The notes under the pieces: model-generated
Told to the model about the DNA's origin: nothing
Seen by the model: only the letters and a program-made list of their open reading frames with translations
Database searches by the model: none
Position numbers and translations under genes: made by a program
In this document: positions 1 to 6,590 of the stretch, piece after piece
How the letters are laid out: each line of letters begins with the position of its first letter
How positions within the stretch are numbered: position 1 is the stretch's first letter
Virus record (IMG/VR): IMGVR_UViG_3300048064_000059
Coordinates: 1 to 30,392 of that record
DNA: 30,392 nt
Source of the DNA: a virus
Strand: one strand, 5' to 3'

Positions 1-250
1 GCTTAATAAAAGCTTTCTCAGGCTGACCCTTAGCGTCAGCATTAGATTCAAGATAGGTCTGTATGGCTTGTGCCAGTGGTCGTATGGTATTAGCCACCAT
101 GACTTTACCATAGCTGGTCACTGACTCCTCTTCACGCTGGATATGAGAGACCCTACGCTTATTGACTCGCTGTTTACCCAGCTTAATCATCTCAGCTTCG
201 TGGTCTAACTCATCAGCGTACTCTTTTATGTTTTTAAATATCTCTACCAT
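1..250 (-). CDS. N-terminal part of a T7-like single-subunit RNA polymerase (runs off the left edge)
   Basis: The frame opens at an ATG at 250, seven bases after AAGGAG, and stays open for 83 codons to the window edge. The visible part is the helical N-terminal domain only. Residues 14-31 (ELDHEAEMIKLGKQRVNK) line up from memory with the T7 RNA polymerase segment containing LEHESYEMGEARFRK. Residues 49-83 resemble the following T7 stretch, where a KPLITTLLPKMI-type helix is followed by a RGKRPTAF-type turn; here these read RPLAQAIQTYL and AKGQPEKAFIK. Position at the end of the early gene block fits T7 gene 1. Catalytic motifs lie outside the window, so the call rests on the N-terminal match and context. 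If right, this enzyme reads the promoter family described here. Confidence 0.75.
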   Translation of the reverse strand, partial: MVEIFKNIKEYADELDHEAEMIKLGKQRVNKRRVSHIQREEESVTSYGKVMVANTIRPLAQAIQTYLESNADAKGQPEKAFIK

Positions 251-279
251 GTATACTCCTTAGGTTAATTGTGTATTGG

Positions 280-300
280 TATCTTATATGGGTACTTTAG
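280..300 (-). promoter_or_regulatory. Phage RNA polymerase-type promoter, copy P1
   Basis: The minus strand reads CTAAAGTACCCATAT then AAGATA. It shares the core TAAAGTNCCC, R, T, N, T, W, AG with four other copies in the window. Length and layout (conserved upstream block, then TATA-like bases, then AGA) resemble SP6 and T7 promoters. It lies 30 bases upstream of the putative RNA polymerase gene and just after a small hairpin. The function is inferred from recurrence and position. Confidence 0.6.
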
Positions 301-314
301 TCCTACAAGTAGGA
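301..314 (-). terminator. Small hairpin upstream of promoter P1
   Basis: TCCTACAAGTAGGA is self-complementary around its centre (5-bp stem with a 4-base loop). The same 14 bases recur at 4897-4910, also just before a phage-type promoter. This suggests a terminator or processing element paired with the promoter. There is no U-run, so the role is uncertain. Confidence 0.35.
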
Positions 315-317
315 AAC

Positions 318-569
318 CTAAAACTCAGACCCATAGTCCTTTTCATTTTTACCCACATGATATGGTTTCTTTAGGTCATTAGGATGTACACCCTTAGTTA
401 TCCAAGTCTCATACATGTGGCGTCTTACTGCGTCAATTTTACCAAAGTCATCCCAGTCTAGTGTCCTTAAGAATTGTTTGTAATGTCTCTCTCTTACTGG
501 ATTCCACCCGACAGGTGATTTATTAGCTGGTGTGTCACTGTTTAATTGTTCTATTGTTAGTTCACTCAT
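318..569 (-). CDS. Hypothetical early protein, 83 aa
   Basis: Not recognised. A small charged soluble protein with no membrane segment or clear motif. The middle has the aromatic and basic segment RERHYKQFLRTLDWDDF, followed by a predicted helix around IDAVRRHMYETW. The ATG at 569 follows GGAG in a leader (GGAGAATAACTATG) that is identical to the leader of the next gene upstream. The stop codon of that upstream gene lies between the Shine-Dalgarno and this ATG, so the two are probably translated together. As the last early gene before the putative RNA polymerase, it could be a host take-over protein, but nothing in the sequence shows this. Confidence 0.7.
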   Translation of the reverse strand: MSELTIEQLNSDTPANKSPVGWNPVRERHYKQFLRTLDWDDFGKIDAVRRHMYETWITKGVHPNDLKKPYHVGKNEKDYGSEF

Positions 570-571
570 AG

Positions 572-760
572 TTATTCTCCTAGTGTCGCACAGACACTTA
601 TAGTTTCTCTTGTTTCAGTGTGTTTGAAAAAATGTTCATTGCCTAAGCTATACATGTACATATAATCATCAAACAAGTTGTATATTTTTTGTGGATAGTT
701 TACGACTTGGTCGCAAACATCAAACACTAAGTCCGTATCAGTTTCTATTGTTGGTTTCAT
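572..760 (-). CDS. Hypothetical early protein, 62 aa
   Basis: Not recognised. A small acidic protein rich in aromatic residues (FDDYMYMYSLG), with two cysteines and no membrane segment. The ATG at 760 follows AAGGAG with good spacing, in a leader shared with the 83-aa gene downstream. Its stop codon overlaps the ribosome-binding region of that gene. The coding call rests on the strong ribosome-binding site and tight packing between neighbours. No function can be proposed. Confidence 0.65.
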   Translation of the reverse strand: MKPTIETDTDLVFDVCDQVVNYPQKIYNLFDDYMYMYSLGNEHFFKHTETRETISVCATLGE

Positions 761-771
761 AGTTATTCTCC

Positions 772-1254
772 TTAGTATGTGTATGTGTTGTCATTCCACC
801 ATATAGGTGTTGCTAGTTTCCACGTAGCAAAGTCACGCTTATCCTGTCTGTAGTACGTACGATACGCAACGACAGGGTCAGCATGTTTATACTCATCAGG
901 CATAGCTTGTGGAAAGTCAGTTAAGTCCTTAAGTGGTAACTCTTTAGGTAATGCTGGTAAGCTTTTTATAACGTCCCATGACTTGTGATTATCAGTTTTG
1001 TTATAGCGTAACTTGTACTCAGCATTGAGTCCCTTAGCTAGTTGTCTAGTCCATAAGTAATTATTCCTAGACTCCTTGAGCCACAGCGTACATGGATGTT
1101 TAGGATGAGTAGACTTGTAAGGCGTCTCATATCCTACCTCATTGAGTACGGTGCACATCATCTGAGCTGTCTCAAGTATCATCTTGACGACATGTTTGTC
1201 GCAATGATATTGAGCACAGGTACGTGGATGTCTGTCTAATATAAATATATTCAT
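772..1254 (-). CDS. Conserved phage protein of unknown function with Cys/His signature, 160 aa
   Basis: The N-terminus carries a block seen in many tailed-phage proteins: CAQYHCDKHVVKMILETAQ at about residues 13-31. It is followed by a HPCTLWLKES-type segment near residue 53, an aromatic NYLW segment, QAMPDEYK, and a closing ATWK...PIWW. I recognise the family as a recurrent phage protein but know no proven activity. The clustered Cys and His residues could bind metal, which is inference. The ATG at 1254 follows GCGAGG in the TTAACA-containing leader common to several early genes. The gap upstream (1255-1370) holds the plus-oriented promoter copy. Confidence 0.8.
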   Translation of the reverse strand: MNIFILDRHPRTCAQYHCDKHVVKMILETAQMMCTVLNEVGYETPYKSTHPKHPCTLWLKESRNNYLWTRQLAKGLNAEYKLRYNKTDNHKSWDVIKSLPALPKELPLKDLTDFPQAMPDEYKHADPVVAYRTYYRQDKRDFATWKLATPIWWNDNTYTY

Positions 1255-1293
1255 AATACCTCGCTATGTTATTGTTAAATAAGGAAACAGGTG

Positions 1294-1316
1294 TTTAAAG
1301 TACCCATATTAGTGTA
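1294..1316 (+). promoter_or_regulatory. Phage RNA polymerase-type promoter, copy P5, facing against the genes
   Basis: The plus strand reads TTTAAAGTACCCATATTAG, matching the core of P1-P4 but in the opposite orientation. All genes around it are on the minus strand, so transcription from it would be antisense to the early genes up to about 4850. It continues into a 49-base element also found downstream of P2. It may drive antisense RNA or prime replication. Confidence 0.5.
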
Positions 1317-1343
1317 AACCCCTGTCTCCCCTAGCTATATATA
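1295..1343 (+). repeat. Inverted-repeat element, left copy (promoter plus AAACCCCTGT and CCCCTAGCTATATATA)
   Basis: This stretch matches the minus strand of 4806-4855 at about 42 of 49 positions with a single one-base gap. Shared blocks are TTAAAGTACCCATAT, AAACCCCTGT and CCCCTAGCTATATATA. Both copies are followed by a possible small hairpin, UAGCU pairing with AGCUA around 9-11 bases. The pair faces inward and brackets the early genes and the mostly non-coding region. Confidence 0.75.
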
Positions 1344-1370
1344 CAGCTATATTACTTCCTACTTACTCCC

Positions 1371-1823
1371 TTATACATCTAAGTAAGGTGTAACCCCATT
1401 AGCAATACAGTCAGTGATGTACCTCATGCGTTTACTTGGGTCATCTCCCATGAGTATCTCAAAGAGCATATCAGTCTTACTACGTTGTACTCTGCTGGTC
1501 GCACGTCTCATCCTAGACTCATACTGCCTAGACTTGATGACATACGGCTTAGTTTTGTACTTGTCCCATATCTTGAGCACGTCATCCTTAAACAGATTAT
1601 TAAGCTGTCTATTGATAGCACTAGGCTTGATATTAGGAAAGGCTATACGAAGATAAGCCAGTAGTGGACGCTTCTTGAATACAGTCATCTTACCGTCTTC
1701 ATTACGCTCCATGATACCGTCTTGCTTCATAACCATTAGTATCTTGTTTTGTATATCCTCAGGCGAGTCAACCTCATCTGTGAAATACGATTCAAGATAC
1801 TTACGACTTGTAACGTCTACCAT
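1371..1823 (-). CDS. Hypothetical early protein, 150 aa, possible winged-helix fold
   Basis: Not recognised as a named family. It is basic overall. The central segment (about residues 45-90) has the sequence KKRPLLAYLRIAFPNIKPS followed by INRQLNNLFKDDVLKIW, which reads like helix-turn-helix then wing and suggests nucleic-acid binding. The C-terminal third is Arg-rich (SRMRRATSRVQRSK). The ATG at 1823 follows GCGAGG. Its leader is the 3' product expected after hammerhead cleavage at 1851/1850, giving a 5' UTR of about 27 bases. The fold idea is inference from pattern only. Confidence 0.7.
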   Translation of the reverse strand: MVDVTSRKYLESYFTDEVDSPEDIQNKILMVMKQDGIMERNEDGKMTVFKKRPLLAYLRIAFPNIKPSAINRQLNNLFKDDVLKIWDKYKTKPYVIKSRQYESRMRRATSRVQRSKTDMLFEILMGDDPSKRMRYITDCIANGVTPYLDV

Positions 1824-1844
1824 AATTTACCTCGCTGTTAATTT

Positions 1845-1907
1845 GTACTAGAACCCCGACACATTACTGGTCAGGGTTTTCGACTAATCAAGTCTCGTCA
1901 GTAGTAC
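1845..1907 (-). ncRNA. Hammerhead ribozyme HHR1 (type I), intergenic
   Basis: Minus-strand RNA, in order: stem I 5' strand GUACUA (1907-1902); core CUGACGA (1901-1895), which fits CUGANGA; stem II GACU, loop UGAUU, AGUC; core GAA; stem III AACCCUGAC paired with GUCGGGGUU (9 bp including A15.1-U16.1 and one G-U), loop CAGUAAUGU; cleavage base C at 1851; stem I 3' strand UAGUAC (1850-1845). Stem I pairs perfectly over 6 bp. It begins three bases after the stop codon of the upstream gene and ends 21 bases before the next ATG. The G-U pair works only in minus-strand RNA, matching the gene direction. All invariant core bases are present. Confidence 0.93.
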
Positions 1908-1909
1908 TA

Positions 1910-2419
1910 TTATTGATACCTCATAACTAACTCGTCATCAGGTACATCTTTTACCTTATGCTGACCCCTCGTCACTATAGACTTACATCTTTTAGACATA
2001 ATCTTAGAGTCGAATGAGCTGTAATAAAGCTCAGGATACTGCTCTTTTAAAGCGTCCAGTATTATGTCTTGCATAACCCAGCCTAGCCTAGTAGATAGTC
2101 TCTCCCAGTCTGCACGTCTAAACCTAGAATACTGCGGTACTTTACCTAGCATAGGAAGTTTAGATTTAAAGAATGACATAAACTGACCACGCCTATTACA
2201 TAGACCGTTATTAAATAGGTCATAGACAAGCTTGTTAGCCATTCTAAAACGCTCTAGCTTTTTATTAGAGCCCTTAGCGTCAGGCACTTCCCCGCAACGT
2301 GGTATTCTAGACCATAACAAGTCAACCATAGCATCATAGCCGCTAGTCTGTCTTAAGCCCCATGAGTACCCTATATGAGCAGTCATACCAATACGTCTTT
2401 TAGTTTTATCTCTTAACAT
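1910..2419 (-). CDS. Hypothetical basic early protein, 169 aa
   Basis: Not recognised. Strongly basic, with an Arg/Lys-rich N-terminus (MLRDKTKRR) and many Trp and Tyr residues; no membrane segment. A longer frame opens at 2461, but the ATG at 2419 has GCGAGG five bases upstream and avoids overlap with the preceding gene, so it is chosen. The stop codon is followed after three bases by the hammerhead HHR1, so the mRNA of this gene would end in the ribozyme 5' product with a 2',3'-cyclic phosphate. Basic charge suggests nucleic-acid binding, which is inference only. Confidence 0.7.
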   Translation of the reverse strand: MLRDKTKRRIGMTAHIGYSWGLRQTSGYDAMVDLLWSRIPRCGEVPDAKGSNKKLERFRMANKLVYDLFNNGLCNRRGQFMSFFKSKLPMLGKVPQYSRFRRADWERLSTRLGWVMQDIILDALKEQYPELYYSSFDSKIMSKRCKSIVTRGQHKVKDVPDDELVMRYQ

Positions 2420-2432
2420 TTTTACCTCGCTG

Positions 2433-2837
2433 TTAATTGTTAAATTTATTAGATAACTCACCCAGTGCTCTAGTCTTACCGTTTCTTACAATCTCTTTTA
2501 CTTCTTGATTGATAAAATATTGCTCTAAGTCAATATTACTAACAATCATTTCTCCTAAGATGTAAACATACATATTCACAACATGTTCTGGCTCTGAAAA
2601 ATCTGTGCTTACCTCTCCAAAATTATCATTTTCATAATCTTTTATTATTTGTACTATATTTAAAGTTTCATCTCCTAACCATTTTCTAGCTTGATATCTG
2701 CCTATAATGTAATAATCAGTATTAAAAGCATGATGGTGGATATCTTCTTTATTTTCTAATACCCAATCTTCTCCTTGTTCTGTTATGAAGTCATGAAAAT
2801 AATCTTTTACTTCTTCATATTTATAATACTTTTTCAT
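2433..2837 (-). CDS. Hypothetical acidic early protein, 134 aa
   Basis: Not recognised. It is acidic and rich in Tyr, Asp and Glu, starting MKKYYKYEEVKDYFHDFI. There is no signal peptide or clear catalytic motif. The ATG at 2837 overlaps the stop of the membrane protein gene upstream (ATGA), with GGGG ahead of it as a weak ribosome-binding site. This points to translational coupling. It lies in the middle mRNA segment bounded by hammerheads HHR2 and HHR1. Acidic early phage proteins sometimes mimic DNA or bind host enzymes; no evidence here decides that. Confidence 0.7.
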   Translation of the reverse strand: MKKYYKYEEVKDYFHDFITEQGEDWVLENKEDIHHHAFNTDYYIIGRYQARKWLGDETLNIVQIIKDYENDNFGEVSTDFSEPEHVVNMYVYILGEMIVSNIDLEQYFINQEVKEIVRNGKTRALGELSNKFNN

Positions 2838-3136
2838 TTTTTATCCCCGTTGTTGTTAATATACTCTAGCACTGGAATAACTAGCATACCTGATAGACAC
2901 CCCAGCATAACCCACAAAGCCCATTCCCAGCTACCAGTAACTAGGAAGCCTACGCCGTCACTTACCGTGTTAGCGAGACATCCTGAGACACACGCTAACA
3001 CCTGAGGCGACGCTTTGTAGTTTGTAAAATAGGCGTCCATGTAGTGCTCAATGCTAGCTAGTGAGTAATAGATACCCACAGCCAGCAACACGTTATCGAC
3101 GTGACCCATTATTGTTATAATTGTCTCTTCACTCAT
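2834..3136 (-). CDS. Small membrane protein, 100 aa
   Basis: An early protein with two or three hydrophobic segments: about residues 14-29 (NVLLAVGIYYSLAS), 45-66, and 69-91 (EWALWVMLGCLSGMLVIPVLEY). It starts MSEETIITIMGHVDNVLL. I have a sense of similar small membrane proteins in other marine T7-like phages but know no function. It overlaps the genes on both sides by a few bases, so it is translated in an operon. It could act on the host envelope or in superinfection exclusion, but this is a guess from topology. Confidence 0.7.
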   Translation of the reverse strand: MSEETIITIMGHVDNVLLAVGIYYSLASIEHYMDAYFTNYKASPQVLACVSGCLANTVSDGVGFLVTGSWEWALWVMLGCLSGMLVIPVLEYINNNGDKK

Positions 3137-3491
3137 TATCTACACTCCTCACTAACTCAGTTTCATTGTTAAGCTGTAAGTAGATACATTCCTGTTTCAT
3201 CCTACGGCATAAAGTAACGGCGTGACGCTGTAGAAGTGTGTATGCAATGCCAACATTTTTATTCGATACATGAAATTCATATATCTTGATATCATCCTTG
3301 TAAATTTCATGGCTGTCGAACCAAAAACCCTCAGCTTGATATCTAGTAAAGCCAGTTATCTCAGACTCTTTATTGTCATTAATTCGGCTTTTATTGTGAT
3401 AAGCTATTTTATCAATGAAATTATTATGGATGTGCATTAAGTCATCCCCGTCGTTGTCCTTCATTGGTAGATATAATTTAATTACTTGCAT
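3129..3491 (-). CDS. Hypothetical early protein, 120 aa
   Basis: Starts MQVIKLYLPMKDNDGDDL and ends with a helix containing LCRRMKQECIYLQLNN. I recognise this general pattern (N-terminal beta strand with LPLKD-like bases, C-terminal RRM.QECIYL) from other phage hypothetical proteins but cannot name a function. The ATG at 3491 follows AAGAGG. It is the first gene after hammerhead HHR2, so after cleavage at 3524/3523 its mRNA would start 32 bases upstream. It overlaps the next gene by eight bases. Confidence 0.7.
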   Translation of the reverse strand: MQVIKLYLPMKDNDGDDLMHIHNNFIDKIAYHNKSRINDNKESEITGFTRYQAEGFWFDSHEIYKDDIKIYEFHVSNKNVGIAYTLLQRHAVTLCRRMKQECIYLQLNNETELVRSVDNE

Positions 3492-3517
3492 TTTTTACCT
3501 CTTATTAATTGTTAAAT

Positions 3518-3567
3518 GTTACAGACGCCTCACGGCGTTTCGACTCATAAAGTCTCATCAGTGTAAC
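3518..3567 (-). ncRNA. Hammerhead ribozyme HHR2 (type I), intergenic
   Basis: Minus-strand RNA, in order: stem I 5' strand GUUACA (3567-3562); core CUGAUGA (3561-3555); stem II GACU, loop UUAUG, AGUC; core GAA; stem III ACGCC with GNRA tetraloop GUGA and GGCGU; cleavage base C at 3524, giving the classical GUC site; stem I 3' strand UGUAAC (3523-3518). Every helix pairs perfectly and every invariant core base is present. The first base of stem I is the last base of the stop codon of the 56-aa gene. The next ATG is 26 bases past the 3' end. Confidence 0.96.
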
Positions 3568-3737
3568 TAGTCGATATAAGGTAGTATTCCCCGCTGTATA
3601 TCTCGCATAATGATATGATATTGAAGCCTAGTTATACGCTTAGCTGATAGCTCAGCTTTTGCGTAATCTTCGTTAGCTTCTACTTTTTGAGCGTATGACT
3701 CATCATTATTCATAGCACGTTGTATTTGTCTATTCAT
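3567..3737 (-). CDS. Hypothetical early protein, 56 aa
   Basis: A short frame starting at the ATG at 3737, immediately after the TAA of the 63-aa gene, and ending TAG at 3567-3569. The protein begins MNRQIQRAMNNDESYAQK and ends RDIQRGILPYID; it is helical, charged and unrecognised. A GGGGG run 6-10 bases upstream can serve as ribosome-binding site. It fills the gap between the 63-aa gene and the ribozyme exactly, and its stop codon touches stem I of HHR2. That fit and the coupling support it as a real gene. Confidence 0.6.
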   Translation of the reverse strand: MNRQIQRAMNNDESYAQKVEANEDYAKAELSAKRITRLQYHIIMRDIQRGILPYID

Positions 3738-3929
3738 TTAGCACCCCCTAGCTTTATCTATTGAGTCATAGACATAATTTGTGAATACTTCAGCGTCAAA
3801 AAGTGGGTTGTCTCTCTCAAACATTAAACACCAGTCTTTAATAATAAACTCAGTGTTTCCCAGTGGATTGTCTGACAATTGACTACCGACCATTTCGGCT
3901 ACTGCTATGTAGTGTTTTTTTGTAAACAT
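3738..3929 (-). CDS. Hypothetical early protein, 63 aa
   Basis: First gene of the early block after the long leader. It starts MFTKKHYIAVAEMVGSQL and contains a DNPLFDAEVFTNYV segment; small proteins of this shape (FTKKHYxAIAE near the start, DNPxFD near the end) are common in tailed phages, function unknown to me. The ATG at 3929 follows GCGAGG. Its leader contains the 3' half of hammerhead HHR3. After cleavage at 3998/3997 the mRNA would carry a 68-base leader starting with stem I of the ribozyme. Confidence 0.75.
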   Translation of the reverse strand: MFTKKHYIAVAEMVGSQLSDNPLGNTEFIIKDWCLMFERDNPLFDAEVFTNYVYDSIDKARGC

Positions 3930-3952
3930 AATATTCCTCGCATTGTTATTGT

Positions 3953-4003
3953 GTTGTTTCGCTCTTTTGAGCTCATCAGTCAGGCTACACAGCCTGAGAC
4001 AAC
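3953..4003 (-). ncRNA. Hammerhead ribozyme HHR3 (type III), early leader
   Basis: Minus-strand RNA, in order: stem III 5' strand GUUGU (4003-3999); cleavage base C at 3998, giving a GUC site; stem I UCAGGC, loop UGUGUA, GCCUGA; core CUGAUGA (3979-3973); stem II GCUC, loop AAAA, GAGC; core GAA; stem III 3' strand ACAAC (3957-3953). All stems are perfect. The open helix is stem III, so this is a different topology from HHR1 and HHR2. It lies between the sigma70-like promoter and the first early gene and would release a leader RNA of roughly 330 bases. Confidence 0.95.
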
Positions 4004-4340
4004 CCCAGCCTTACCCGTTGCGTCCGTCCACCGCTGATTATTACGTTACCTGTTACCCAGTGCGTCAGCACCTGTGAAGTGTATTGTCACACGCTTACTG
4101 GATTTCATAAAAATGATAAGGTGTCTATATCCTCAGTAATTTTCTTACCGCTTGCTATCTCATAACTAGCACGGTCTTAGGCTGGTTTTGGTCAGTCTAG
4201 CCACCTTTCGGCTCTTAGCATTTGCTACGCTTCCTAACCCCGTACAACGCTTACACCTCTCAGCTCCGCCTTGCCTCATCTCAGAATGTTTATAGTGCTG
4301 AGTCACTAGCTAGGATTTCCCGTTCCCCTAGCATGTGTAT
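4004..4340 (-). ncRNA. Long untranslated early leader RNA, upstream product of HHR3
   Basis: No convincing gene is seen between the sigma70-like promoter and HHR3. The longest frames (37 aa at about 4286, 20 aa near 4106) lack ribosome-binding sites. This stretch looks more GC-rich than the rest of the window and contains several short self-complementary pieces, for example GGCU pairing with AGCC near 4180-4200. Cleavage by HHR3 would free it as a discrete RNA ending in a cyclic phosphate at 3998. Whether it has a function is unknown. The physical genome end could also fall in or near it. Confidence 0.4.
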
Positions 4341-4370
4341 ACTCTACACCCAATGAATACACCATGTCAA
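4335..4370 (-). promoter_or_regulatory. Sigma70-like early promoter
   Basis: The minus strand has a perfect TTGACA -35 (4370-4365), an 18-base spacer and TAGAGT as -10 (4346-4341), a 4 of 6 match. It points toward the early genes. An inverted repeat GTGTA...TACAC (4335-4349) overlaps the -10. T7-like phages start infection with host RNA polymerase at promoters in just this place. A dyad GCTGAT...ATCAGC lies about 40 bases upstream at 4409-4422. Confidence 0.5.
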
Positions 4371-4474
4371 TAAAAGAATTACATGAAAGTGAATTAATTT
4401 GATATATGGCTGATTCATCAGCTTATAGAAATAAAAATAGACCATAGCTCAAAGACAAACAAAATAAAAATGTC

Positions 4475-4564
4475 CAGCCGTGTATCCCTTTAGGCTTCCC
4501 TTTATGTATAGACCACAGGCGACCGCAAGCCCGTGTGCGTGTGATACTATACTATACACGGCTG
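4475..4564 (-). ncRNA. Structured RNA candidate with three nested stems
   Basis: The minus strand can form an 11-bp outer stem, CAGCCGUGUAU with AUACACGGCUG; a 6-bp inner stem, GUAUAG with CUAUAC; and a 7-bp apical hairpin, CACGGGC with GCCUGUG, over an 8-base loop. The apical hairpin contains a G-U pair that becomes an A-C mismatch in plus-strand RNA, so the structure belongs to the minus-strand transcript. No known RNA family was recognised. It lies between the 51-aa gene and the sigma70-like promoter. Confidence 0.5.
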
Positions 4565-4617
4565 ACGGCACGGGGGAAATTCCACCTCTTGCTATCGTGT
4601 TATCCCCTCATATTTTT

Positions 4618-4773
4618 TTACCAAATATTCGACAAAACAACAGCTGTTAACACAGCTATCAGAATAAACTCCCCTATGGATATCTCAGGCTTTAACCAGT
4701 AGGTTCTAATATAGTGACTATTAAGGAGTATTACTCCAGTAATAACTATGAGTAGTACTTCTATTAGTATCAT
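4618..4773 (-). CDS. Small two-helix membrane protein, 51 aa
   Basis: A short frame from ATG 4773 to TAA 4618. The protein begins MILIEVLLIVITGVILLNS, has a polar turn around HYIRTYWLKPE, and a second hydrophobic helix ending AVLTAVVLSNIW. Two clean membrane helices separated by a basic loop argue for a real gene, although no ribosome-binding site is visible upstream. It is the first frame after promoter P2 and the conserved element, and is the only coding candidate in the 1-kb region between TerL and the early genes. The function is unknown; a holin-like or membrane-modifying role would be a guess. Confidence 0.5.
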   Translation of the reverse strand: MILIEVLLIVITGVILLNSHYIRTYWLKPEISIGEFILIAVLTAVVLSNIW

Positions 4774-4805
4774 AATTAATAAGTAATAAGGAAGGATAGC
4801 TTGTC

Positions 4806-4855
4806 TATATATAGCTAGGGGTGCACAGGGGTTTTATCTTATATGGGTACTTTAA
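4806..4855 (-). repeat. Inverted-repeat element, right copy (contains promoter P2)
   Basis: Read on the minus strand, this matches 1295-1343 on the plus strand at about 42 of 49 positions. It starts with the promoter core and continues through AAACCCCTGT and CCCCTAGCTATATATA. In T7, promoters of the OL and OR type near the genome ends act as replication start sites. A comparable role here is possible because this copy lies just after TerL. Confidence 0.75.
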
Positions 4856-4856
4856 G
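4835..4856 (-). promoter_or_regulatory. Phage RNA polymerase-type promoter, copy P2
   Basis: The minus strand reads CTTAAAGTACCCATAT then AAGATA, nearly identical to P1. It follows three hairpins after TerL, a terminator-then-promoter layout. It would transcribe the 51-aa gene, the structured RNA and the early genes late in infection. Confidence 0.6.
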
Positions 4857-4867
4857 TTTTTGTCCAC

Positions 4868-4910
4868 CCTTTGTCTAGATATTTACAGACAAGGACTCCT
4901 ACAAGTAGGA
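4868..4910 (-). terminator. Two hairpins between TerL and promoter P2
   Basis: At 4868-4894, CCUUGUCU pairs with AGACAAAGG with one bulged base. At 4897-4910 the 14-base palindrome TCCTACAAGTAGGA repeats the one at 301-314. With the larger hairpin at 4918-4950 they form a chain of three. There is no U-run, so termination is inferred from position. Confidence 0.4.
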
Positions 4911-4917
4911 CAAGAGC

Positions 4918-4950
4918 CGCCAAAGGAAAAATGAAGAAAAACCTTTGACG
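4918..4950 (-). terminator. Hairpin directly after TerL
   Basis: The minus strand CGUCAAAGG pairs with CCUUUGGCG over 9 bp, with one G-U pair that exists only in minus-strand RNA. The loop is U-rich. It starts two bases after the TerL stop codon. It is likely a late terminator or a stabilising 3' end. Confidence 0.5.
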
Positions 4951-4952
4951 AC

Positions 4953-6590
4953 CTATATCCACGAATCTCCATCCATAGGTCTGCCAAGAGCAGTCTCCAT
5001 GAATTTATCTAAATCTTCCTGTAACATTTCTTCTTTATGTTGGTTATAAGACAATGTTTGGTCTCTATCCATTACTTCTACCCAGTAGTTAGCTGCAATA
5101 GCTAAGGCGTCTATTTGGTCATCATGCCTTAGTGCACCTTTATCCCTTGTTATCCTAGTCATTTGTCTAAATAACTGGTGGTCAGGGTCTAACTGAAAGT
5201 CATCTTTGATAAGCTTATCATCAATAACTAACCTATGGGTATTCATAATAGGCTCTAATGTGTCTATTATACGCTTCTCTTTCTGTATACTGTGACGTAC
5301 TTCCTCTACATTACAAGGATGTATGTCAGCCAATACAGGCTTTAGAAGCTGTGTTGCCATTCCATCACCAAAGTTACTCTCAATGACGATATCATTAACG
5401 TCATGTTTCTTGGCTATATTGGCTAGCTTCTTAAGTGTGTCATCAGAGTATCCACCGTCTAGACCACCAATGGCAGTCAGGTACAATACACCGTGTAACA
5501 TCTTAAGTACACAATAGGCTGTTTTATCTGCCCCTCGACCCGCTGGGTCAATAGACATAACTGAGCCTTCAAACTCTGTAAATTCATCAGACATATATAG
5601 GTAAGAAGTCCAATAGTCACCCTTAAGTCCTACATTAGGTAACTCAGAGTCAACAGCTTTGATTTGGTCTATACCTGAAGCCCATTGTATTTTGGCTGGA
5701 GCTTCTGTCCATGTGCTGCAACCTGAGGCTATAATAAGGTCATTAAGCTTCAATGGGTATTTATTGGCGTCAGATAGACTAGTATCCAACATAAACTGTA
5801 AATTAAAGCCTGACCTACCATATGAGCTTAAACGCTCCATTAAGTCGATTTCATTAAATCTATCAGGGTCAGTAGGGTCTCCCTCTTTTCCGTCCATATC
5901 AGCGATTATAGGGGCTAATTTATGCCCATATCCAGTCCTTTGTGCTTGGTTAGGAATCAATGCTGACCATATACGTGTCTTGAACCCACGTTCTTCTAAA
6001 TCATTGTATAAGGACATCTCTGTTTGTGGTGTCCCAAGAAAGATAATACGACCTATTTTAGGCTTTATAATAGCGTCAAACTCTTTTACGGTCTCACCTA
6101 AGCGGTCACGCATGAGTTGAGTCTGTGAGTTATTGGCAGATTCTACGTCATCAGCAATAATAATATCAGCTCGTGAGCCTGTTAGCTGTCCCGTAATCCC
6201 CATAGACTTCACTGAGGGGGCGTGTGAAGCCTGTGCTGGGGCAACATCAAAGGATACCTTAGAATGTCTTTGGCTATCCTTAGGTTGTAGATGTTGTAAT
6301 AACGGCATTTCTGCAATTAGTCTTTGTGTAAATGTACTAAAGTCATCAGCCCTCGTTTTACTAGCTGATACTACCAATATGTTACGCTGAGGGTTCAGCA
6401 GTAATTGGTGACATACAAACGCAGAAGTAATCCAAGACTTTCCTACGCCCCTAAAAGCCTCTATTACTATACGTTTCTCTTTAGATTGTAAATAGTCTGC
6501 TATATCGTATTGTATAGGTGTTGGCTCAGGTAAATTTAGGTGTTTCCAAGCTAGATACAAGAAGTTCTTAAAGTTATCTATCTTATTCAT
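4953..6590 (-). CDS. Terminase large subunit (T7 gp19-like)
   Basis: The packaging motor ATPase and nuclease, which threads DNA into the prohead through the portal and cuts concatemers. 545 aa against 586 in T7. The Walker A loop is FRGVGKSW at about residues 46-53. It is followed by the T7-type block SVKSMGITGQLTGSRADIII and the Walker B strand IIIADDVE. The nuclease half has SIDPAGRGADKTAY, ESNFGDGMA, MTRITRDKGALRHDD and DDQIDALA, all matching T7 gp19 from memory. The ATG at 6590 overlaps the TerS stop by eight bases with no clear Shine-Dalgarno, so it is likely translated by coupling. It is the last late gene before a hairpin cluster. Confidence 0.97.
   Translation of the reverse strand: MNKIDNFKNFLYLAWKHLNLPEPTPIQYDIADYLQSKEKRIVIEAFRGVGKSWITSAFVCHQLLLNPQRNILVVSASKTRADDFSTFTQRLIAEMPLLQHLQPKDSQRHSKVSFDVAPAQASHAPSVKSMGITGQLTGSRADIIIADDVESANNSQTQLMRDRLGETVKEFDAIIKPKIGRIIFLGTPQTEMSLYNDLEERGFKTRIWSALIPNQAQRTGYGHKLAPIIADMDGKEGDPTDPDRFNEIDLMERLSSYGRSGFNLQFMLDTSLSDANKYPLKLNDLIIASGCSTWTEAPAKIQWASGIDQIKAVDSELPNVGLKGDYWTSYLYMSDEFTEFEGSVMSIDPAGRGADKTAYCVLKMLHGVLYLTAIGGLDGGYSDDTLKKLANIAKKHDVNDIVIESNFGDGMATQLLKPVLADIHPCNVEEVRHSIQKEKRIIDTLEPIMNTHRLVIDDKLIKDDFQLDPDHQLFRQMTRITRDKGALRHDDQIDALAIAANYWVEVMDRDQTLSYNQHKEEMLQEDLDKFMETALGRPMDGDSWI

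Follow-up and report, generated by a model that had tools for sequence, protein, structure and literature searches.

The 30,392-base stretch of viral DNA analyzed here in full (the window; IMG/VR virus record IMGVR_UViG_3300048064_000059) carries three hammerhead ribozyme motifs between its terminase gene and its RNA polymerase gene (Table 1). The window has no end repeats, and all of its recognized phage genes are on the minus strand. Its terminase is 84.0% identical to that of HTVC109P and 79.7–82.4% identical to those of the other listed Pelagivirus-labelled records, and its gene order, structural genes and ribonucleotide reductase genes match those of Pelagivirus isolates. Judged by these sequences, the phage is T7-like and marine, a close relative of the genus Pelagivirus, and its relatives are viruses of SAR11 bacteria. 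The N-terminal residues of the HTVC168P polymerase align with window positions 250–2 (minus strand), and the hammerheads are thus upstream of the polymerase gene, which runs off the end of the window. No integrase match was found among the ten early genes scanned in the window; the related isolates HTVC109P and HTVC019P have an integrase. For the pyrimidine-dimer DNA glycosylase, the best match among the listed isolates is in Roseobacter phage CRP-143 (48% identical).

Table 1. Features of the early interval of the window, in the order of minus-strand transcription, with further promoter-like elements in the last line (nt, nucleotides; aa, amino acids; ORF, open reading frame; mRNA, messenger RNA).
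Feature	Position	Strand	Basis or remark
Terminase large subunit (DNA maturase B)	4953..6590	-	84% identical to HTVC109P; upstream end of early interval
Promoter-like element, upstream of early block	4825..4855	-	motif
Type III hammerhead, first in series	3953..4003	-	predicted cut after C3998, downstream RNA from 3997; core kept by downstream mRNA
63-aa early gene, first after leader cut	3738..3929	-	start codon 68 nt past cut at 3998
56-aa early gene, family F10	3567..3737	-	ORF
Type I hammerhead	3518..3567	-	predicted cut after C3524, downstream RNA from 3523; core kept by upstream mRNA
120-aa early gene	3129..3491	-	start codon 32 nt past cut at 3524
100-aa early gene	2834..3136	-	ORF
134-aa early gene, phrog_10208 (unknown function)	2433..2837	-	profile match
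169-aa early gene from ATG (183 aa from upstream GTG)	1910..2419	-	ORF
Type I hammerhead	1845..1907	-	predicted cut after C1851, downstream RNA from 1850; core kept by upstream mRNA
150-aa early gene, family F1	1371..1823	-	start codon 27 nt past cut at 1851
Promoter-like element, antisense, facing back across early block (at 1298)	1295..1325	+	motif
160-aa pyrimidine-dimer glycosylase	772..1254	-	PF03013 over cut-off
Promoter-like element, upstream of RNA polymerase gene	280..299	-	motif
T7-type RNA polymerase gene start, runs off window end	2..250	-	tblastn
Further promoter-like elements	about 28071 and 13610	-	motif

The three hammerheads share the coding strand of the interval, and their cores are complete (CUGAUGA, CUGAUGA and CUGACGA; GAAA; GUC, GUC and UUC ahead of the cut). 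In each copy the core is adjoined by three paired stems, I, II and III, with the A15.1-U16.1 pair included in stem III. The type III copy is cut at its 5′ side and the two type I copies at their 3′ side. These motifs, their exact boundaries and the first base after each cut are as an initial annotation had read them from the DNA. That annotation also had all three in untranslated gaps, which holds for 3953–4003 and 1845–1907, both intergenic; 3518–3567 overlaps the stop codon of the 56-aa gene by one base. The pattern search and the covariance models found no fourth hammerhead in the window. Shuffled sequence yielded none at all: neither 200 first-order shuffles of the window, each searched on one strand, nor a second-order shuffle of 163 records, searched on both, contained a hammerhead. 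With the shuffles empty and the controls of a core-only search (below) without stems, we reject a chance origin.

None of the window copies has an Rfam match at the gathering level. Below it, one copy matches RF00008 (Hammerhead_3) with 40.3 bits (E 2.2e-6; gathering 48.5) and the other two match RF03152 (RAGATH-1; gathering 56.3), one with 38.9 bits (E 5.1e-4), the other with 22.5 bits (E 2.1). The Rfam search proposed in the initial annotation therefore returned hammerhead matches, all of them sub-gathering. These two families have the core and stems of the window copies and are their best Rfam matches; by sequence and predicted structure, the window copies belong to the hammerhead class and not to either entry as curated. 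Covariance models made from related sequences and the window copies themselves give the three copies 63.2, 62.8 and 59.3 bits. Rfam at gathering level finds no hammerhead in nine related loci that bear them, which may be why such copies lack annotation. An Rfam search (E ≤ 1) of five relative loci without hammerheads turned up no other ribozyme class. The same setting also missed hammerheads in L170, L171, L179, L180 and L181 that are detectable otherwise, which makes Rfam a weak test in this case.

The motif is conserved and occurs in most of the relatives that were examined. We searched a first set of 184 related records, many of them short or distant contigs and some of the loci copies of one contig. 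A strict search gave 132 matches, with two weak ones dropped, and all 132 were on the coding strand. The 95 distinct sequences comprise 53 type I, 32 type III and 10 type II hammerheads, and the predicted cut follows a C in 89, an A in five and a U in one. Stem pairing was kept across the aligned copies. For type III (31 of 32 sequences), 99.1% of cells were paired and both sides had changed in 12 of 15 pairs; for type I (44 of 53, those above 70 nt left out) the values were 98.6% and 12 of 15, and for type II (10 of 10) 100% and 10 of 16. These sequences had been picked by pairing and the counts lean toward structure, and a core-only search that requires no pairing serves as the unbiased check. 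In 186 records it gave 135 matches, 132 on the coding strand and three on the opposite strand, the latter a single sequence in L031, L032 and L033. All three stems were present in 93 of 99 distinct candidates. Two of the remaining six are likely decayed type III copies (L004 and L023), one is cut by the contig end (L047), one has imperfect stems (L168, the Rhizobium phage RHEph01), and two look like chance (L106 and the opposite-strand sequence of L031). Ten second-order shuffles gave 0–5 core-only matches each, none with stems, and a control in which both halves of the motif were reversed gave four matches. The covariation in related genomes on which the initial annotation had staked its prediction is thus present in all three types. 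We conclude that the three hammerheads of the window are real as sequence motifs, conserved and very probably functional.

We also searched 37 records whole with three covariance models (R1–R3); two of them, G000 and G297, are fragments. All matches fell within the early region. The polymerase gene lay downstream of the hammerheads wherever it was located, which covers the records with matches other than W20, W21, W23–W25 and G295. In W20, W21 and W23–W25 the matches are in the first 2.8 kb and the terminase is near the record end, and in G295 they come just after the terminase. At least one hammerhead was found in 14 of 15 Pelagivirus isolates, which are part of the listed records (Ran EXVC014P, e.g., is outside the sample), and two or more were found in six: Eistla, HTVC109P, HTVC168P, HTVC019P, HTVC031P and HTVC142P. 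In HTVC109P, weak matches at 41256–41323 suggest a type III hammerhead divided between the two ends of the record as deposited. Early-region hammerheads are also present in the two Paadamvirus records, which are Rhizobium phages: RHEph01 (L168) has a type III at 662–712 and a type I with imperfect stems at 2572–2638, and RHEph21 (L181) has a type III at 541–594. No model matched T7, P-SSP7, HTVC011P, LUZ100, CRP-361, HTVC119P, HTVC200P, HTVC120P, HTVC134P, Bylgja, HTVC309P, the contig G293 or the fragment G297; two Votkovvirus are among the phages without a hammerhead. A wider core scan of viral contigs returned at least 119 stretches. Among the 80 examined, complete hammerheads numbered none in 30, one in 35 and at least two in 15, and copies within a multi-hammerhead stretch were never on both strands. 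The 15 stretches with two or more indicate that arrays exist in phages beyond the Pelagivirus group. In three other phages (L200, L203 and L230), type I and type III hammerheads lie around a conserved ATPase (phrog_1297) and an HNH endonuclease (phrog_1314), and L187 and L260 each have four consecutive type I hammerheads.

The types tend to follow an order. Across 47 terminase-bearing pieces, the first hammerhead after the terminase is type III in 32, type I in 15 and type II in none; counted by 44 different contigs, type III comes first in 31 and type I in 13. Among the type-I-first pieces, L004, L015 and L031 (as G292) have a weak upstream match to the type III model, and L011, L037, L086 and Eistla have no separate type III by that model. 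In L102, a locus without a terminase, type I precedes type III. Spacing to the neighboring genes also differs by type. From the cut to the next start codon, the median is 34 nt for type I (quartiles 30–49), 67 nt for type III (62–69) and 65 nt for type II (61–91). Type I copies begin where the upstream gene stops, with a median gap of 0 (quartiles −4 to 2); the median distance of type III from its upstream gene is 303 nt. In 42 of 54 type I copies, a stop codon closing a frame of at least 30 codons stands 5–13 nt ahead of the core, vs. 138 of 3150 nearby random positions. Applied at the outer edge, the same test was positive for 7 of 13 type II copies and for none of the 34 type III copies. 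The strand bias and the spacing to start and stop codons point to a function in RNA. In the window, each of the three leaders left after cutting (68, 32 and 27 nt) contains a stretch like a ribosome-binding site.

Because of the motifs, their strand, the covariation, the place in the early region and the spacing to start and stop codons, we consider serial mRNA processing very likely. The three cis-cleaving hammerheads would, in our assessment with good confidence, cut the early polycistronic transcript of this Pelagivirus-like phage co-transcriptionally into a leader and three mRNAs, the first long transcript being probably divided into separate messengers by the RNA itself. The type III hammerhead would remove the long leader, its core remaining as the structured 5′ end of the first mRNA, which would begin 68 nt ahead of the first start codon whichever promoter had initiated the RNA. 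Each type I hammerhead, at the stop codon of the preceding gene, would cut some 30 nt ahead of the following start codon, its core staying behind as the structured 3′ end of the upstream mRNA. The expected products are the leader, an mRNA for the 63- and 56-aa genes, an mRNA for the 120-, 100-, 134- and 169-aa genes, and an mRNA from the 150-aa gene to the RNA polymerase; the positions of the hammerheads in the gaps fit this set, which is also the one that the initial annotation had proposed. Cleavage would take place in infected cells, and the benefits may include a defined leader, separate or freed translation, and ends that protect the mRNAs. For the phage, ribozyme cutting would do the job that RNase III does for T7.

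Several observations weigh against this reading. The Rfam gathering score is reached neither by the window copies nor by any copy in the nine related loci. Folding speaks on both sides. With 15-nt flanks, the active fold is 2.7 (3953–4003), 0.1 (3518–3567) and 2.8 kcal/mol (1845–1907) above the predicted minimum, a closeness that favors the reading. The minimum fold keeps 11 of 16 hammerhead pairs in the first copy, five of 16 in the second and 19 of 19 in the third. These figures count unbroken stems only, without tertiary contacts, and neither prove nor refute activity. The median gap among 34 distinct type III copies with flanks is 5.55 kcal/mol, with seven of 34 at or below 3, and the type I median is 1.65. 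As a separate point, a search for a pseudoknot between the type I stem II loop and its flanks gave nothing significant: loop swaps did as well in 33 of 500 cases downstream and 90 of 500 upstream. Also on the negative side, genes predicted by a simple ORF caller run into nine of the 54 type I and seven of the 34 type III hammerheads. Arrays are not universal; among the 15 Pelagivirus isolates, eight have one detectable hammerhead each and HTVC105P has none. Two related contigs, G293 (searched with the three models) and L049 (with the strict pattern and R1 only), yielded no hammerhead, which means that the ribozymes are dispensable. Stem II is broken in the type III copies of L004 (9825–9875) and L023 (about 13237), which look decayed; they are possibly decayed ribozymes or another fold. 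Taken together, the initial interpretation is partly supported: the evidence of sequence and covariation for hammerheads, their strand, their confinement to the early region and their positions in the gaps all speak for it.

The hammerheads could instead chiefly mark the boundaries of exchangeable early cassettes, either by keeping genes independent or as short homologies for recombination, with mRNA processing as a by-product. We compared gene families in 18 chosen loci, a small sample called with the simple ORF caller. A type I hammerhead comes after family F10 in 6/6 loci (the window included) with three different next genes, and a type I directly precedes family F1 in 5/13 loci with five different previous genes; a hammerhead also follows F21 in 2/2 loci and F23 in 1/2. 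Our impression, which is uncounted, is that hammerheads of one genome often have a stem I sequence in common. Boundaries that are kept while the neighbors change fit insulated cassettes. However, F1 is without a directly preceding type I in 8/13 loci, recombination alone would not keep stem pairs changing together across relatives, and the coding-strand bias and the start and stop spacing favor a function in RNA. A boundary role is also compatible with processing and does not exclude it. We therefore regard it as unlikely to be the chief role.

Serial processing may have a further dimension, in which topology is matched to the RNA end. Hammerhead cleavage leaves a 5′-OH and a 2′,3′-cyclic phosphate. 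After the cut, the downstream RNA would keep the type III core and the upstream RNA the type I core, so we infer structured 5′ and 3′ ends, respectively. It is conceivable, and we offer it tentatively, that type III copies are makers of 5′ ends and type I copies makers of 3′ ends, and that exchangeable early cassettes are thereby turned into mRNAs with structured 5′-OH and 2′,3′-cyclic phosphate ends without a host nuclease; the hammerheads would then be natural insulators that free T7-like SAR11 phages from RNase III. RiboJ-type insulators in synthetic biology work in a comparable manner, a ribozyme in the 5′ leader fixing one mRNA start whichever promoter is used. RiboJ is engineered, whereas the arrangement in the window is natural and pairs the 5′ element with type I hammerheads at gene ends. 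A host that lacks RNase III finds no support as the reason: of 289 genomes from a single class (taken as Alphaproteobacteria, with the host not singled out among them), 282 have the RNase III family. A few stretches were folded with the long double-stranded hairpins of RNase III processing in mind, and one hairpin was seen at 1255–1370 (−25.8 kcal/mol, z −1.87).

Transcription signals in the window are putative. A phage-promoter-like element, AAAGTACCCATAT, occurs at three places without mismatch, and a profile built from these exact copies adds two weaker ones with 15.5 and 15.3 bits (next best 9.7). With up to three mismatches the motif is not above chance (11 found, shuffle mean 15.8), and only the exact and the two near copies stand out. 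Host-type promoters in 1–5200 are likewise not above chance (14 found, shuffle mean 15.9); terminator-like sites in the same interval number four (shuffle mean 2.5, standard deviation 1.5). The antisense orientation of the element at 1298 recurs in 16 loci (14 contigs) of close relatives. A kept promoter-like copy opposite the early block, together with the stop codons ahead of most type I cores, could suggest regulated switches, in which cleavage is delayed by a ribosome terminating over stem I or by antisense RNA from 1298 and processing differs between early and late infection. We find this improbable, as no ligand-like extra domain is evident in the window copies, the packing of stop codon and ribozyme may be mere compactness, and the promoter at 1298 is only putative.

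The idea that we rate least probable is a retrozyme-like one, in which the RNA from a type III to a type I hammerhead is cut out and circularized. The 474-nt block 3997–3524 would have 5′-OH and 2′,3′-cyclic phosphate ends, which are substrates of RtcB-type ligation. The block is protein-coding, with a stretch like a ribosome-binding site ahead of the start codon, and spliced or circular products reportedly escaped detection in a study of prophage hammerheads (Perreault, 2011; PMC3088659), so we set this idea aside.

The serial action of hammerheads in phages is not new, contrary to what the initial annotation had implied. In the same study, hammerhead clusters in prophages, often close to an integrase gene, flank short blocks or single genes, and long phage transcripts were proposed to be cut into operon- or gene-length mRNAs; 14 of 18 tested consensus hammerheads cleaved in vitro, as did three arrays, and one array cleaved in E. 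coli (Perreault, 2011). The haloviruses HF1/HF2 were reported there to have an early-region hammerhead, with a transcript 5′ end within three nucleotides of the cut. As in the prophage arrays, the window has at least two hammerheads on one strand that flank genes of what appears, from gene order, to be one transcription unit. The arrays described as tested are those of Clostridium scindens, Azorhizobium caulinodans and Agrobacterium tumefaciens (Perreault, 2011), whereas the present ones are in T7-like phages, in the interval from terminase to polymerase, and have an ordered make-up. The HF1/HF2 element (HHphage) is similarly upstream of the first gene of a polycistronic early transcript in a lytic virus, but as described it is a single core variant in an archaeal virus; the window has three copies with consensus cores. 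In T7, the early transcript made by the host polymerase is cut by RNase III at five sites into mono- and dicistronic mRNAs (PMC4858673). T7 relies on a host protein enzyme, and its record has no hammerhead match; the likeness to the window would be one of function. In the result listings of open PubMed Central literature, we found neither Pelagibacter phages nor Autographiviridae described as having hammerheads, and no account of this ordered set ahead of the polymerase in T7-like phages; the 2011 study is itself not among the open papers that pair "Pelagibacter" or "Autographiviridae" with a ribozyme term. Serial phage hammerheads are already known, and what is apparently new is their ordered, early-only arrangement in a cultured group of T7-like phages.

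If the processing reading is true, marine phages with the genome plan of T7 would carry out by RNA alone the processing for which T7 and RNase III are the textbook example. Ordered arrays of this kind would also be a source of natural ribozyme insulators for gene design. Because these ribozymes are present in Pelagivirus isolates that are in culture, the question of what hammerheads do for phages, to which Perreault (2011) gave no final answer, becomes accessible to direct experiment.

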